Below, one piece after another: positions 5,511-11,831 of a stretch of 64,000 nucleotides of DNA; position 1 is the first letter of the stretch; the number at the start of each line of letters is the position of its first letter. Source of the DNA: Microbacterium sp. LWO14-1.2 (GTDB taxonomy: Bacteria; Actinomycetota; Actinomycetes; Actinomycetales; Microbacteriaceae); the NCBI RefSeq assembly GCF_038397715.1, contig NZ_CP151633.1:3100001-3164000 (forward strand). The letters run 5' to 3'. The notes beneath the pieces were generated by a model that was given only the letters and a program-made list of their open reading frames with translations, searched no databases and was not told the DNA's origin. A program made the translations under genes and the position numbers.

Positions 5511-6545
5511 ATGGCGCGCAAGAAGAAGACGGTCGACCTGGACCGGGACAACGGCATCGCGCCGGGTCTCGTCGCGAAGACCAAGAAGCGGCTCGTCGTC
5601 GCCGGTGGTCGATCGCACCCGGAGCTGACGGCCGCCGTCGCTGCGGCGCTCGGCACCGAGATCGCCCCGGTCGAGCACCGCACCTTCGCCTCCGGCGAGA
5701 TCTACGCGCGGTTCGAGGTGTCGATCCGCGGGTGCGACCTCTTCCTCATCCAGACGTTCGGCGAGCCGGTGAACGAGTGGCTCATGGAGACGCTCATCAT
5801 GATCGACGCCGCCAAGCGCGCGTCGGCCAAGCGCATCACGGTCGTCGCGCCGTACTATCCGTATTCGCGTCAGGACAAGAAGGGCCGCGGTCGTGAGCCG
5901 ATCAGCGCCCGTCTCGTGGCCGACCTGCTGAAGACGGCGGGCGCCGACCGCGTCATGAGCGTCGACCTGCACGCCGCCCAGATCCAGGGCTTCTTCGACG
6001 GCCCCGTCGACCACCTGTTCGCGAAGCCCGTGCTGCTCGACCACTTCCAGCGCACGCTGAGCCCGGAGGACCGCGAGATCCTCACGGTCGTCTCGCCCGA
6101 CATGGGCCGTGTCCGCGTCGCCGACACCTGGTCCGACAGCCTGGGTGCGCCCCTGGCCATCATCCACAAGCGCCGTGACCCGAAGGTCGCGAACCAGGTC
6201 TCGGTGCACGAGATCGTCGGCGCCGTCGAGGGGCGCACCTGCCTCCTCGTCGACGACATGATCGACACCGGCGGCACGATCGTGAAGGCCGCGCAGGCGC
6301 TCAAGGCCAACGGCGCGCATCGCGTGATCGTGGCCGCCACGCACGCGATCTTCAGCGACCCGGCGTCGGAGCGGCTGCAGGACGCCTCGATCGACGAGGT
6401 CGTCATCACCGACACGATCCCGCTCACGGAGTCGCGGCGCTGGGAGAAGCTCACGATCCTCCCGATCGCGCCGCTGCTGGCCCGCGCCATCCACGAGGTG
6501 TTCGAGGACGGCTCGGTCACGAGCATGTTCGGCGGCGACGCGTAG
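5511..6545 (+). CDS. prs: Ribose-phosphate pyrophosphokinase (PRPP synthetase)
   Basis: 344 residues, slightly longer than usual because of a basic N-terminal extension (MARKKKTVDLDRD). It converts ribose 5-phosphate and ATP to PRPP for nucleotide, histidine and tryptophan synthesis. The PRPP-binding loop LLVDDMIDTGGTI is at about residues 244-256; the ATP-binding region includes YYPYSRQDKKGRGREPIS and the metal site VDLHAAQIQGFF. It is separated from glmU by 8 bp and is certainly in the same operon; both products feed nucleotide-sugar and cell-wall synthesis. No clear terminator is seen in the 95 bp downstream. Confidence 0.96.
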   Translation: MARKKKTVDLDRDNGIAPGLVAKTKKRLVVAGGRSHPELTAAVAAALGTEIAPVEHRTFASGEIYARFEVSIRGCDLFLIQTFGEPVNEWLMETLIMIDAAKRASAKRITVVAPYYPYSRQDKKGRGREPISARLVADLLKTAGADRVMSVDLHAAQIQGFFDGPVDHLFAKPVLLDHFQRTLSPEDREILTVVSPDMGRVRVADTWSDSLGAPLAIIHKRRDPKVANQVSVHEIVGAVEGRTCLLVDDMIDTGGTIVKAAQALKANGAHRVIVAATHAIFSDPASERLQDASIDEVVITDTIPLTESRRWEKLTILPIAPLLARAIHEVFEDGSVTSMFGGDA

Positions 6546-6640
6546 GCGACGCAGCGTCACGGCACAGCCGGTACATAGGACGCATCCCTACGGTCGATTC
6601 AACGACATGCAGTTGTCTCGAACAGAGCCGGAGGACCATC

Positions 6641-7102
6641 ATGATCCGCACGACCGTACCGACCACTGTCCGCAAGGGTTCCGCGCTCCTCGGCGTCGCC
6701 GGACTCCTCGTCCTCGCCGGGTGCTCCGGCACCGGTGACGCGCAGTCGCCCTCGACCGGCGACAACGGAAGCACGCCGTCGTCGGACTCGGCCGCCACCG
6801 GTGGCGAGTACAAGGACGGCACATACGAGGCCGAGGGCTCGTACCAGACCCCCGAGACCGTCGAGACGATCTCGGTGTCGCTGACGATCGCCGACGGCGT
6901 CGTCGAATCCGTCGAGGTCACGGGCGACCCCAAGGCCCGCGAGACCGAGCAGTACCAGGGCCAGTTCATCGACGGCATCTCCGACGAGGTCGTGGGCAAG
7001 TCCCTCGACGACATCTCGGTGAGCCGCGTCGCCGGCTCCTCGCTCACGAGCGGCGGATTCAACGAAGCCGTCGCGTCGATCAAGGAGCAGGCCGCCGCCT
7101 GA
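6641..7102 (+). CDS. FMN-binding domain lipoprotein (flavinylated electron carrier)
   Basis: 153 residues. A signal peptide ends in a lipobox LAGC with Cys28; a Ser/Thr/Gly-rich linker follows, then an FMN-binding domain (residues about 58-153). The flavinylation region reads AGSSLTSGGF (residues 131-140). Aligned by eye with the SGATLTS core of NqrC-type domains, Ser134 occupies the place of the modified Thr; ApbE can modify Thr or Ser. The protein would sit on the outer face of the membrane with covalently bound FMN. ApbE follows 15 bp later and a membrane reductase after that, so the three form one functional unit. The ATG has a CGGAGG box 7 nt upstream. The flavinylation itself is inferred. 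Confidence 0.85.
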   Translation: MIRTTVPTTVRKGSALLGVAGLLVLAGCSGTGDAQSPSTGDNGSTPSSDSAATGGEYKDGTYEAEGSYQTPETVETISVSLTIADGVVESVEVTGDPKARETEQYQGQFIDGISDEVVGKSLDDISVSRVAGSSLTSGGFNEAVASIKEQAAA

Positions 7103-7117
7103 GGCGCCTGACCCGCC

Positions 7118-7975
7118 ATGGCCATCTGGCGCTTCGAGGCGATCGGCACGCGGTGGGAGATCGAGAGCGCGTCCGACCTCGACGACGCGTCGCGGCAGGC
7201 CGTGAGCGCGGAGATCGAGCGCTTCGATCGGGAGTGGTCGAGGTTCCGCGACGACTCGGGCGTCACGCGGGTCGGCCGCGAGGGCGGGTCGATCCGCTCA
7301 CGCGATGCCGCCCCCATGCTCGACGCGTACCGCGACGCCTCGGCCGCGACGGGCGGTGCCGTGAACCCTCTCGTCGGCGACAGCCTCGCAGCCTTGGGCT
7401 ATGACGCCGCATACACTCTCACGGCCGGCCCGCCGGTCGCCGCTCCCTCGGACTGGCAGCGACTCGTGCGCTGGACGGCGGCCGAGGCCACGGCATCCGC
7501 TCCCGCTCTGCTCGACGTCGGCGCTCTCGGGAAGGGCCGACTGGTGGACCTCGTGATCGACGTGCTGTCGCGTGTGCCCGGCGACCTCGTCGTCGACGCC
7601 GGCGGCGACATCCGGGCGCGCGGAGCCGGGGTGCGCATCGGCCTCGAGCACCCGTACGACCCGACCAAGGCGATCGGCGTCGTCGAGCTGCAGGATGCCG
7701 CGCTCTGCGCCTCGGCGGTCAACCGCCGCGCCTGGGGAGACGGCCTGCACCATGTGCTCGACGCGCGCACCGGCGTCCCCGTGCGCACCTGGGCGGCGAC
7801 CTGGGCGATCGCCTCGGACGCGATGCGAGCGGATGCCGTCGCCACGGCGCTCTTCTTCGACGGCGGCACCGAGCTCGCCGCCGACTGGGGCGTGGAGTGG
7901 GTGCGCATGTCGACCGATGGGCGCGCCGAGCGCTCTGCGGGGTGCCCGGCCGAGCTGTTCTCCGTCAGGGCGTAG
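7118..7975 (+). CDS. apbE: FAD:protein FMN transferase
   Basis: 285 residues of ApbE family. Visible family features are the N-terminal FEAIGTRWEI, the GAVNPLVGDSLAALGYD stretch, DVGALGKGRLVDLV and VDAGGDIRARG, which together form the FAD and Mg site, and the late LHHVLDARTGVPV motif. ApbE transfers FMN from FAD to Thr/Ser of target proteins; the obvious target is the upstream lipoprotein. No signal peptide is visible and no longer start is available, because the upstream gene ends only 15 bp before. That would leave the enzyme in the cytoplasm while its substrate is exported, an unresolved point. Confidence 0.93.
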   Translation: MAIWRFEAIGTRWEIESASDLDDASRQAVSAEIERFDREWSRFRDDSGVTRVGREGGSIRSRDAAPMLDAYRDASAATGGAVNPLVGDSLAALGYDAAYTLTAGPPVAAPSDWQRLVRWTAAEATASAPALLDVGALGKGRLVDLVIDVLSRVPGDLVVDAGGDIRARGAGVRIGLEHPYDPTKAIGVVELQDAALCASAVNRRAWGDGLHHVLDARTGVPVRTWAATWAIASDAMRADAVATALFFDGGTELAADWGVEWVRMSTDGRAERSAGCPAELFSVRA

Positions 7976-8020
7976 GGGCATGGCCCTCGGCGCCGTCATC
8001 GATCAGGGAAGAGGAGAACC

Positions 8021-9595
8021 GTGATCACCTCCCTCACCGCACTGCGGCAGCGCGTGCTGGCGTTCCTCGGCGGCATCTCGATGTACCGTCTCGTGCTGTT
8101 CGCCCTGCTCGCGCTCGCCGTGATCGCGATCGCGCTCTCGGCGCTCGGCGTGATCGTCTCGCCGACGCCCCTCGAGATCGTCGCGTCGTTCGCCGTGCTC
8201 GCGGTCGTCATCGCGGCCGTCGACGCCGCCGTGCAGCGCCTGCTCCGCCTCCCGTGGCGTCTCGAGTCCTCGCTGGTGACGGCTCTCATCCTGCTGTTCG
8301 TCCTGCGTCCGGGAGTCGAGGGCACCGCACTGCTGGGTCTCGCGATCGCCGGCGCCCTCGCGAGCCTGTCGAAGTACCTCATCGCGTGGCGTGGCCGACA
8401 CATCCTCAACCCCGCCGCGTTCGGCGCGTCCGTCGTGTCGATCCTCGGGTCGTTCGGTGCTTTCGAGTGGCTGGGCACCTCGTCGTCGTGGTGGGTCGGC
8501 ACGCCCTCGCTGTTCCTCCCCGTCGCGGTCCTCGGTCTCGCGGTGCTGTGGCGCACCGAGAAGGTGCGCATCGTGCTCGCCTTCCTCGTGATCGCGATCG
8601 CCGTGTCGGTGCTGCGGCAGGCGGTGCAGGCGCAGGAGTTCGCGATCGCGTTCGACCTCGGCACCGCGCTCTCGTTCGCCGTGCTGCAGTCGCCCTTCCT
8701 CTTCCTCGGCGCGTTCATGCTGTCGGAGCCCCTGACGATGCCGCCGAGGCGCTGGCAGCAGTTCTCGGTGGCCGCCCTGGTCGGTGTCCTCGCCGGGTGG
8801 CCCATCGCGATCGGGTCGCTGTTCACGCTCGGTCAGGAACGGGCCCTGCTCATCGGCAACCTGCTCGCCTTCGCCTTCGCACTGCGGGGGTCGGTACGTC
8901 TCGTGCTCGAGCAGCGGCGGTCGCTCACCCCCACGGCGCAGGAACTCACCTTCCGCGCCCGCGGAACCGTGCGCTTCCTTCCCGGCCAGTACCTCGAACT
9001 CGACGTGCCGCACCGGCGGCCCGACGCCCGAGGCACCCGACGCGAGTTCAGCATCGTCTCGGCGCCCGCCGACCTGCCGACACTGCGCATCGCGTACAAG
9101 GACGGCGATCAGCAGCATCCGTCGAGCTACAAGCGCGCCCTCGCGGCGGCCCAGCCGGGCGCCACACTCGCTGTGACGGGCACCTGGGGCGACTTCCTCC
9201 TCCCGCGCTCCGACGCGCCCGTGCTCATGGTGGCAGCGGGCATCGGCGTGACGCCGTTCGTGTCGCAGCTGCGGCAGCTGCACCAGACCGGTCGGCAGCG
9301 TGACGTGGTGCTCGTGTACGTCGCCGCCGACAGCGGCGAGCTGGCCTTCCGCGACGAGCTCGCGGCGACGGGTGCGCGGGTGGTCGTGTTCACCCGCGAC
9401 GAGCCCGCCGACCTGCCCGCGCACTGGAGCTGGGCGCAGGGTGCGCGCCTCGACGGCGCCGGCCTCGATCAGTGGGTGCCGGACCTCGGCTCCCGCCACG
9501 CGTACATCTCCGGTCCGCCGCGGCTCATCGCCGACCTCGCCCCTGCGCTGCAGAAGGCCAGGTCGCTCACGACCGACGCGTTCGCCGGCTACTGA
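8021..9595 (+). CDS. NqrB/RnfD-like membrane protein fused to an FAD/NAD(P)H reductase
   Basis: 524 residues. About residues 20-305 form some ten membrane segments with the NqrB/RnfD signature (GRHILNPAAFGA; a later AFMLSEPLTMPP). I do not see the SGAT flavinylation loop of true NqrB/RnfD. From about residue 310 a ferredoxin-reductase module follows: FLPGQYLELDVP (about 318-330), RREFSIVS for FAD (about 338-345), AAGIGVTPF for NAD(P)H (about 404-412) and the terminal YISGPPRLI. The chimera can take electrons from cytosolic NAD(P)H to a membrane cofactor, and the neighbouring flavinylated lipoprotein is the likely outside acceptor. The GTG start has GAGGAG 6 nt upstream. The stop overlaps the convergent histidine kinase gene by 7 bp. 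Confidence 0.87.
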   Translation: MITSLTALRQRVLAFLGGISMYRLVLFALLALAVIAIALSALGVIVSPTPLEIVASFAVLAVVIAAVDAAVQRLLRLPWRLESSLVTALILLFVLRPGVEGTALLGLAIAGALASLSKYLIAWRGRHILNPAAFGASVVSILGSFGAFEWLGTSSSWWVGTPSLFLPVAVLGLAVLWRTEKVRIVLAFLVIAIAVSVLRQAVQAQEFAIAFDLGTALSFAVLQSPFLFLGAFMLSEPLTMPPRRWQQFSVAALVGVLAGWPIAIGSLFTLGQERALLIGNLLAFAFALRGSVRLVLEQRRSLTPTAQELTFRARGTVRFLPGQYLELDVPHRRPDARGTRREFSIVSAPADLPTLRIAYKDGDQQHPSSYKRALAAAQPGATLAVTGTWGDFLLPRSDAPVLMVAAGIGVTPFVSQLRQLHQTGRQRDVVLVYVAADSGELAFRDELAATGARVVVFTRDEPADLPAHWSWAQGARLDGAGLDQWVPDLGSRHAYISGPPRLIADLAPALQKARSLTTDAFAGY

Positions 9596-11106
9596 TCCGA
9601 GGAGTCGTCGTCCGCGGGCGATTCGTGGTGCATCGGGATCCGCACCGTGAAGGTCGTGTCGCCGGGTTCGCTGTCGACGGTGATCTGCCCGCCGTGCCCC
9701 TCGACGATCGCCTTCACGATCGCGAGTCCGAGCCCGGTGCCGCCGGTCTGTCTGGCTCGCGAGGTGTCCGCCCTGGCGAACCGGGCGAACAGCTCGTCGC
9801 GCACACTCGGGTCGATGCCGGGGCCGTCGTCGTGCACGCGCAGCACCGCGTCGTCGCCCTCGCGGTCGACGCGCAGCGTGATGTGGGTGCCTGCCGGCGT
9901 GTGCGTGCGGGCGTTCGCGAGCAGGTTGGCGACCACCTGATGCATCCGGCCGGCATCGCCGACGATCACGAGCGGCTCGTCGGGCACCTCGATGTTCCAG
10001 TGGTGCTCCGGCGCCGTCGGCCGGGCGTCAGAGAGGCCCTCCAAGGCGAGCTGGGTGAGGTCGACGGTGCCGTGCACGAGTTCCCGGCCCTCGTCGAGCC
10101 GCGCGAGGAGCAGCAGATCCTCCACGAGCCGTGACATGCGCAGCGACTGCGCCTGGATGCGCTCGAGCGAGGTCGTGGTTCCCTCGATCGCCGCAGGCCC
10201 CTGCTGCTGGCTGAGGGCCTTGAGCGACAGTTCGGAGTACCCGCGGATGCTGGCGAGCGGCGTCCGCAGCTCGTGGCTCGCGTCCGCGACGAACCGTCGC
10301 ATCCGCTCCTCGTTCTTCTGGCGTGCGGCCAGCGACGTGTTCACGTGATCGAGCAGCTTGTTCAACGATGCGCCGACGAGACCGGTCTCGGTGCGCGGAT
10401 CGGCCTCGTAGGCAGGAACCCGTTCGGTGATCTCGACCTGGCCGCGATCCAGCTGCTGGTTCGCGACGCGGGTGGCGGTCGCCGCGACGGCCCGCAGCGG
10501 ACGCAGGCTCACCCTGATCGTGATCGCTGTTGTCAGGGCGAGCAGGATCAGCCCGCCGAGAGTCGCGAGCACGATGACCGTCAGGAGGGTCGTGAGCTGA
10601 TTCTGGATCTCGTCGCGCGGCAGACCCGTCACGACGGTCGCCCCGGTCTGCGGCGCGGTCGCCACGACGAGTCGATACGACCCGAGCCCGTCGATCGTCA
10701 CGGTCGCGTTGGGGCCGCCGTGCAGACCTGTCTCGATCTGGTCGAGCTGCCTCGAGCTCAAGACCGATGGGCCGGTGCTCATCTCGTCCCGCGGACTGTT
10801 GAGGACCACGCCGCTGACGCCCGCCTGGTTCGACACCGCGACCAGTAGCCCCGACTCGGGTGAGGTGGTGGCTGAGAAGATGTCGGCTGCGGTGCCGATG
10901 TTCGAGGGGAACTTGTTGACCAGGTAGGTGAGCTGCCCGGCATACTGCTCGATCTTCTGGTCGAGCTGTCCCTCCAGGGTGCGGCCGAGGATCGCGCTCG
11001 TGATGATCGAGACGATCACGAGGATGAGCGACACGAACCCGATCACGGCCGTCATGAGCCGGGTCTGCAGGCTCATCGGCCGTGCCGCGAGTCGGGGAGT
11101 GGTCAC
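9589..11106 (-). CDS. Two-component sensor histidine kinase (HAMP, HisKA, HATPase)
   Basis: 505 residues from the GTG that overlaps the response-regulator stop by 4 bp; an ATG 10 codons later is also possible. Transmembrane helix 1 is near residues 20-42, then an extracytoplasmic sensor of about 140 residues, helix 2 (TTLLTVIVLATLGGLILLAL), a HAMP linker, the H-box ADASHELRTPLASIRGY (His about 278), N-box NLLANARTHTP, and the ATP lid DDGPGID and GGTGLGLAI. It would autophosphorylate and pass phosphate to the OmpR-type partner encoded just upstream. The signal is unknown. It converges with the flavin electron-transfer genes and touches them, which is suggestive but not evidence of regulation. 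Confidence 0.93.
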   Translation of the reverse strand: MTTPRLAARPMSLQTRLMTAVIGFVSLILVIVSIITSAILGRTLEGQLDQKIEQYAGQLTYLVNKFPSNIGTAADIFSATTSPESGLLVAVSNQAGVSGVVLNSPRDEMSTGPSVLSSRQLDQIETGLHGGPNATVTIDGLGSYRLVVATAPQTGATVVTGLPRDEIQNQLTTLLTVIVLATLGGLILLALTTAITIRVSLRPLRAVAATATRVANQQLDRGQVEITERVPAYEADPRTETGLVGASLNKLLDHVNTSLAARQKNEERMRRFVADASHELRTPLASIRGYSELSLKALSQQQGPAAIEGTTTSLERIQAQSLRMSRLVEDLLLLARLDEGRELVHGTVDLTQLALEGLSDARPTAPEHHWNIEVPDEPLVIVGDAGRMHQVVANLLANARTHTPAGTHITLRVDREGDDAVLRVHDDGPGIDPSVRDELFARFARADTSRARQTGGTGLGLAIVKAIVEGHGGQITVDSEPGDTTFTVRIPMHHESPADDDSSDQ

Positions 11107-11831
11107 TGAGGCGCCTTGATCATGTAGCCGACGCCGCGCACGGTGTGCAGCAGGGGAGTGCGGCCCGCGTCGATCTTCTTGCGGAGGTACGAGATGTACA
11201 GCTCGACCACCGAGGACTTGCCGCCGAAGTCGTAGCTCCACACCCGGTCGAGGATCTGCGCCTTCGACAGCACGCGCCGTTCGTTGCGCATGAGGAAGCG
11301 CAGCAGCTCGAACTCGGTGGCGGTCAGCTCGATCTCGGTGCCGTCGCGCACGACCTCGTGGCTGTCCTCGTTGAGCGAGAGGTCGGCGACGCGGAGGATC
11401 GACTGGCCGTCGTCGGCGGTGGCGTGCCCCGTGCGGCGGATGATCGCACGCAGGCGCGCGATCACCTCTTCGAGGCTGAAGGGCTTGGTGACGTAGTCGT
11501 CGCCGCCGGCGGTGAGGCCCGCGACGCGGTCGCCGACGGCATCCTTCGCGGTGAGGAACAGGACGGGCACCAGGTTCCCCGCCTCGCGGAGTCGCCGCAG
11601 CACCGACATGCCGTCGAGGTCGGGCATCATGATGTCGAGCACCAGGGCATCCGGCTCGAACTCGCGGGCGACCTGCAGGGCTTCGAGTCCCGAGGATGCG
11701 GTCCGCACCTCCCAGCCCTCCATCCGCAGGGCCATCGCGAGCAGGTCGGTGAGCATCTGCTCGTCGTCGACGGCGAGGATGCGCAGGGGGGAGCCGTCGG
11801 GGCGGCGCAGTTCGGGCAGATCGGTGCTCAT
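11103..11831 (-). CDS. OmpR/PhoB-family response regulator
   Basis: 242 residues. Receiver domain: acidic pair Asp22-Asp23 (RILAVDDEQ), phosphoacceptor Asp66 (LVLDIMMPDLDG), conserved Lys116 (YVTKPF). C-terminal winged-helix domain with LTATEFELLRFLMRNERRVL and the recognition helix SSVVELYISYLRKKID, ending LLHTVRGVGYMIK. It is translationally coupled to its kinase through a GTGA overlap. It lies 69 bp beyond the terminator of gnd, so it has its own promoter; CAGAAT lies 6 nt before the ATG and could be a weak leaderless -10 box. Confidence 0.95.
   Translation of the reverse strand: MSTDLPELRRPDGSPLRILAVDDEQMLTDLLAMALRMEGWEVRTASSGLEALQVAREFEPDALVLDIMMPDLDGMSVLRRLREAGNLVPVLFLTAKDAVGDRVAGLTAGGDDYVTKPFSLEEVIARLRAIIRRTGHATADDGQSILRVADLSLNEDSHEVVRDGTEIELTATEFELLRFLMRNERRVLSKAQILDRVWSYDFGGKSSVVELYISYLRKKIDAGRTPLLHTVRGVGYMIKAPQ

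Follow-up and report, generated by a model that had tools for sequence, protein, structure and literature searches.

A conserved, predicted electron export module of Microbacterium combines an ApbE without a recognisable export signal and an altered flavin acceptor motif

We analysed a 64,000-nucleotide stretch of the Microbacterium sp. LWO14-1.2 genome (contig NZ_CP151633.1; hereafter the window), in which three adjacent plus-strand genes encode a lipoprotein predicted to bind flavin mononucleotide (FMN; 153 amino acids, 6641..7102), the flavin adenine dinucleotide (FAD):protein FMN transferase ApbE (285 amino acids, 7118..7975) and a fusion of an NqrB/RnfD-like membrane domain with an FAD- and NAD(P)H-binding reductase (524 amino acids, 8021..9595). 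Judged from the sequences, this module is real, conserved and of a known kind of electron exporter, and represents a branch in which ApbE lacks an export signal and the acceptor motif is altered. A first-pass annotation, made from the letters of the window, had placed three genes with these identities at these positions; all three open reading frames (ORFs) were present and the identities fitted their sequences. Its interpretation was borne out in part: the components, and electron flow that starts at NAD(P)H and ends on a flavin outside the cytosol, are consistent with the sequence and with a published model. The system is less new than implied, as it belongs to the Nqr/Rnf-like class, for which a model of the complex has been published; the annotation also remarked on neither the signal-less ApbE nor the unusual acceptor motif.

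We regard it as fairly probable that the module encodes an electron exporter of two subunits, powered by NAD(P)H, together with the enzyme that matures it, and that the lipoprotein receives its FMN while still in the cytosol. NAD(P)H would reduce FAD at the cytosolic end of the fusion, and electrons would cross the membrane by way of a non-covalently bound flavin of the NqrB/RnfD-like domain, reach the FMN of the lipoprotein outside, and then pass to a further acceptor, for which metal ions are a guess. For maturation, a cytosolic ApbE would transfer FMN from cytosolic FAD to Ser134 of the pre-lipoprotein, which, bearing its FMN, would then be exported, probably via Sec, and lipidated. The electron path follows published models, while we infer the cytosolic attachment, the Ser134 acceptor and the Sec route from sequence. 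The interest lies in the conflict between a signal-less enzyme and an exported substrate rather than in the module itself: because ApbE has no export signal and the acceptor motif is non-canonical, the place of flavin attachment becomes the question.

The window ApbE matched PF02424 at 129 bits, the only match to this family in the genome, and its profile matched 13 distinct solved ApbE sequences with E values of 0.001 or lower. Alignments with the solved ApbEs place D239, S199 and H212 at the positions of the Asp-Ser-His triad that a review describes (PMC12052999), and each was conserved in 77 of 77 sequences. An in-frame TGA stop (7109..7111, plus strand; from the sequence and ORF bounds) ends six bases before the start codon at 7118 and leaves no space for a signal peptide, and neither a signal peptide nor a lipobox was found on the window ApbE.

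The same hydropathy rule, a simple one and not a trained predictor, was applied to every set of ApbE sequences. Among ORFs read from the first start codon, an export signal was found in 0/76 from the module in Microbacteriaceae and in 0/72 from the module in named loci, which include Arthrobacter, Aeromicrobium, Cellulomonas, Saccharibacteria and other members of the Candidate Phyla Radiation (CPR), Dictyobacter and Ktedonospora, with Chloroflexota also represented. The result was again nil across the class Actinomycetes, both for 40 other loci hand-picked from the class list to vary families (0/40) and for the 30 best-scoring class loci (0/30); these two sets share six places, giving 64 distinct. 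The control comprised the 30 loci that scored best for ApbE in a phylum-wide draw, none of them from the class, and 25 of its start-codon ORFs carried a signal, seven with a lipobox. Because fewer than 15 residues preceded the ApbE domain in many start-codon ORFs (21/76, 38/72, 8/40 and 5/30 in the above order, and 1/30 in the outside control), the test was repeated on stop-to-stop readings. The counts were then 0/76 for the Microbacteriaceae module, 0/73 for the named module, 25/30 for the outside control, and one match in each class set, 1/40 (L275) and 1/30 (L249), both falling outside the start-codon ORFs of the same loci. In each module set one ApbE row starts ahead of the opening of its frame, and another is truncated where the stretch ends. 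The module rows without a signal total 148, or 143 distinct sequences, as the two locus sets overlap partly and have five ApbE sequences in common.

The lipoprotein begins with a predicted signal peptide (6641..6724, plus strand) ending at a lipobox cysteine, Cys28 (LAGC), called with the lipobox consensus and present in 79/79 aligned Microbacteriaceae rows. Its predicted acceptor motif, AGSSLTS (residues 131-137; 7031..7051, plus strand), departs from the canonical SGAT: GSSLT occurs in 79/79 Microbacteriaceae rows, window included, and Ser134, the putative FMN acceptor, occupies the position of the Thr in SGAT. Named actinobacterial rows, again counting the window, read GSSLT in 51/52 cases and SSSLT in 1/52, and rows from CPR, Chloroflexota and unassigned bacteria read GSSLT in 3/24 and GAT or GAS in the other 21. 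Pooling both locus sets, 125 of 147 distinct lipoproteins carry GSSLT. A profile of 33 relatives reached the solved FMN-binding domain 8p2a at E 0.014 only, with GSSLTS aligned to SGATYTS. The intermediates SGAS, AGAS and GGAS are present in relatives, and the acceptor may have drifted from SGAT to an invariant GSS within the module.

Acceptor type and enzyme subtype were compared in 71 lipoprotein-ApbE pairs, window included. ApbEs with AIGTxW pair with GSS in 53 cases, GAS in 3 and SSS in 1, and all 13 with MGMP pair with GAT or GAS; one GSS pair was untyped. These are raw counts that include relatedness.

A search of the window's own genome with PF04205 (FMN_bind) returned the window lipoprotein as the sole match. 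Because the genome thus holds one ApbE and one FMN_bind match, attachment, if any, would most simply be cytosolic. Sec is the likely export route, since the signal of the window lipoprotein has no twin arginine and a loose RR pattern, scored against the consensus for twin-arginine translocation (Tat), occurs in only 5/79 Microbacteriaceae rows; Tat export was rejected, the corresponding count for named actinobacterial rows being 6/52, with the window counted in both sets. Bonardi and co-workers are said to have reported in 2011 that Sec passes bulky side groups.

The absence of a signal from ApbE was general in the class sample (L230-L299), also beside FMN_bind proteins with canonical motifs. 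An FMN_bind protein lay in the same stretch as ApbE in 29 of the 40 hand-picked class loci, with a GA[ST]-type motif in 27 of the 29, so the signal-less trait is wider than the module. Exported ApbE and the FAD-exporter family PF07456 tend to co-occur, and neither turned up in the class sample. PF07456 had no match in 197 genomes of the class, other FAD exporters not having been searched for; in a class draw of the same size, 121/197 genomes had an ApbE. By comparison, 23/149 genomes of the phylum draw held PF07456, all listed rows lying outside the class, and 19 of the 30 signal-control genomes were among these holders and 11 were not. We put forward, tentatively and at somewhat less than even confidence, a broader proposal: throughout the class Actinomycetes, and in the module at every locus where it occurs in our sets, FMN-binding proteins destined for export may be flavinylated in the cytosol by a signal-less ApbE and then pass through Sec with the flavin in place, the acceptor having drifted to GSS in the module. 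If cytosolic attachment is true, no FAD export would be needed and a covalent flavin would be a passenger of the Sec channel; if it is true for so large a class, views on where flavinylation occurs, on whether FAD must be exported and on what cargo Sec can carry would have to be restated. Neither a signal-less ApbE beside an exported target nor a GSS acceptor was matched in the passages of the literature searched.

Several points weigh against cytosolic attachment to Ser134. No Sec passenger that bears a covalent flavin is known to us. Five of the 30 outside-class control ApbEs also lack a signal. The PF04205 match of the window lipoprotein is barely above the cut-off (22.8 bits against 22), and a phylum-wide PF04205 run gave no match for the window genome where the own-genome run did; these conflicting runs show that the model is marginal for this branch. 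At the acceptor, the ApbE-substrate motif D-x-x-[S/T]-G-A-[S/T] is replaced by S-R-V-A-G-S-S, and tests reported in the review found that changes of the Thr to Ser and of the Ala lower flavinylation (PMC12052999). Finally, known ApbEs for exported targets are extracytosolic (PMC12052999, PMC9973259).

We consider two alternatives unlikely. ApbE might leave the cell by an unrecognised route and flavinylate the lipoprotein outside with FAD supplied by another exporter, in the manner of the exported Listeria ApbE, which would agree with characterised systems for exported targets, since these act outside; yet no start-codon ORF of the module rows carries a signal, and the Listeria marker PF07456 is missing from the class genomes searched. 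Alternatively, the lipoprotein might not be covalently flavinylated at all, GSS being a dead acceptor, FMN loosely bound or absent, and ApbE serving some other, cytosolic target. The non-canonical motif would fit this, as would the existence of cytosolic ApbEs with cytosolic targets, described for Klebsiella (PMC12052999) and predicted in one case in Paracoccus. A dead acceptor would, however, be hard to square with the invariance of Ser134 and its neighbours, the intermediate motifs in relatives, the retention of apbE between the two other genes, and the tracking of acceptor type by ApbE subtype. Least probable is that the fusion itself mainly reduces membrane quinone, as the related NQR complex does (PMC11334425), with the lipoprotein as regulator or sink, because the lipoprotein gene accompanies the fusion in 78 of 79 loci, the exception lying on a 3 kb contig, and the published complex model sets the lipoprotein flavin beside the membrane subunit.

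The electron path of the favoured exporter would run through the fusion. Its C-terminal half, a predicted cytosolic FAD- and NAD(P)-binding domain (residues ~300-524; 8918..9592, plus strand), matched PF00175 over residues 403-505 at 35.1 bits (cut-off 22) and has solved reductase relatives including 5ogx (E 4e-17). The N-terminal half (residues ~1-290; 8021..8890, plus strand) had no Pfam match up to E 0.1, and PF03116 had none anywhere in the window genome, though it scored above cut-off at the fusion of another genome (G206). A profile of 80 relatives nevertheless aligned with 25 RnfD-type sequences (probability 96.6, E 5.5e-10; 202 columns at the default setting and 291 at a permissive one), and a reversed-target control reached 0.4 and E 0.13 at both settings. 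NPA (130-132), WW (157-158) and FMxxEPxT (EPLT at 236-239) are among its most conserved sites, and, judging from hydropathy and charge, it would have about ten helices and both termini on the inside.

Covalent FMN in the membrane domain was considered and rejected: Thr161 aligns near the NqrB/RnfD Thr, but the position varies (T 54, S 13, N 10, A 3; n=80), and [ST]GA[ST] occurs anywhere in the fusion in 5/80. The module does not qualify as a complete NQR or RNF complex, which has further subunits and iron-sulfur carriers: the window genome has no PF03116 match, and the fusion has no cysteine in its 524 residues. Among systems of the NQR family, the module would be a very compact wire from NAD(P)H to the outside, apparently made of flavins alone. 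For this branch, PF03116 and PF04205 work at or beyond the edge of their sensitivity, and published counts that relied on them have probably overlooked it.

The three genes travel together. Using a membership threshold of E below 1e-50, the fusion was present in 79 (own included) of 199 Microbacteriaceae genomes searched. In the 79 other Microbacteriaceae loci fetched, the lipoprotein gene was found in 78, apbE in 76 and both in 75, the sole locus without a lipoprotein gene being the 3 kb contig (L013). Corresponding figures for 80 named loci were 75, 72 and 70, several misses falling on short contigs, and gene order differed in a few (for example L175). A locus fetched as a non-member (L111) had neither lipoprotein gene nor apbE. 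The outcome that the first-pass annotation had named as refuting, namely that the genes would not be conserved together, thus did not occur, and their being kept side by side across genomes argues that the module is not due to chance. Three loci (L067, L105 and L108) had fusion and lipoprotein genes and no apbE in the fetched stretch, and L105 and L108 have SGAT within the membrane domain.

The annotation had also suggested a search for a constant fourth partner. We ran it over 159 loci (the window, 79 unnamed and 79 named) and found none. Genes were called by a crude GC-position rule that is weak for low-GC loci, and clustering merged apbE with the fusion through overlong ORFs. No non-module family exceeded 47/159 loci, and the top one was not adjacent. 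Histidine kinases (29/159, 20 near, mostly Microbacterium) and P-type ATPases of several subfamilies (23/159, 21 near) were each rejected as a constant partner. The ATPases beside the module are convergent in L042, L084 and L152 and upstream on the same strand in L122, L126 and L128.

No terminal acceptor had been evident in the first-pass annotation, and none was found here either. Among ten downstream neighbours in non-actinobacterial loci, two were metal transporters, VIT1 (L188:7537-8250) and Nramp (L176:7527-8810), each of which directly follows the fusion on its strand. Of the other eight, five lacked a Pfam match and three were unrelated (SDR, methyltransferase and RuvC). A magnesium-type P-type ATPase lies upstream in L176, and other ATPases lie at other loci. 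VIT1 has been reported in six Nqr/Rnf-like clusters (Meheust et al. 2021, PMC8238504), and such transporter links hint at metal reduction; genome-wide, VIT1 was uninformative (190/195 genomes). Replacement of MsrQ-like systems found no support, strong PF01794 matches (E up to 1e-12) occurring in 29/79 fusion genomes versus 56/120 others (Fisher p 0.19). Strong PF01794 matches lay within ~1 kb of VIT1 in Microbacteriaceae genomes such as G155:C41, G025:C1 and G011:C13, pairs that resemble published MsrQ-like/VIT1 clusters.

The window genome comprises 3.78 Mb in a single contig, and the nearest protein matches of the window are from Microbacterium. The module ORFs are separated by 15 and 45 bases, with prs upstream (5511-6545). 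Downstream and convergent lies a two-component system of histidine kinase and response regulator (9589-11831); its kinase ORF runs 7 bases into the 3' end of the fusion gene, and a kinase of the same family lies downstream of the module in many Microbacterium loci. Scanned with consensus patterns, 6300-9900 held no sigma-70-like promoter and a single terminator-like site, located within apbE, against 0.5 expected from shuffles.

Among known systems, PplA, FmnB and EetB/FmnA of Listeria (PMC9973259) likewise combine, in a Gram-positive, a flavinylated exported protein (predicted here) with an ApbE-type enzyme. The Listeria ApbE is extracytosolic and needs exported FAD, marked by EetB (PF07456), whereas the window ApbE carries no signal and the class sample yielded no PF07456 match. 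The cytosolic ApbE of Klebsiella (cited in PMC12052999) also lacks a signal peptide, but it acts on a fumarate reductase that is soluble and cytosolic, not on an exported lipoprotein. NQR and RNF share the NqrB/RnfD-related membrane domain and an FMN-binding partner; the module differs in having two subunits only and no fusion cysteine for an iron-sulfur centre. The closest counterpart is the Nqr/Rnf-like system, defined with 127 clusters, primarily from Actinobacteria and CPR, and detected by PF03116 plus PF00175 (Meheust et al. 2021, PMC8238504). A two-subunit complex of this kind has been modelled for a Ktedonobacter, with no flavinylation site in the membrane domain and the lipoprotein flavin next to the membrane subunit, and the covalent flavin was proposed to sample a non-covalent site in that domain (Huang et al. 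2024, PMC11334425). The text of these accounts, so far as it was covered, does not mention a signal-less ApbE or a GSS acceptor, and a PF03116 search misses the window fusion. By homology, the window module is nonetheless assigned to this class: its apbE and FMN-binding genes are adjacent, its FMN-binding protein has a lipobox, and it shares with the Nqr/Rnf-like system an FMN-binding extracytosolic protein, an ApbE, an NqrB/RnfD-like domain joined to PF00175, and a membrane domain without a covalent FMN site.

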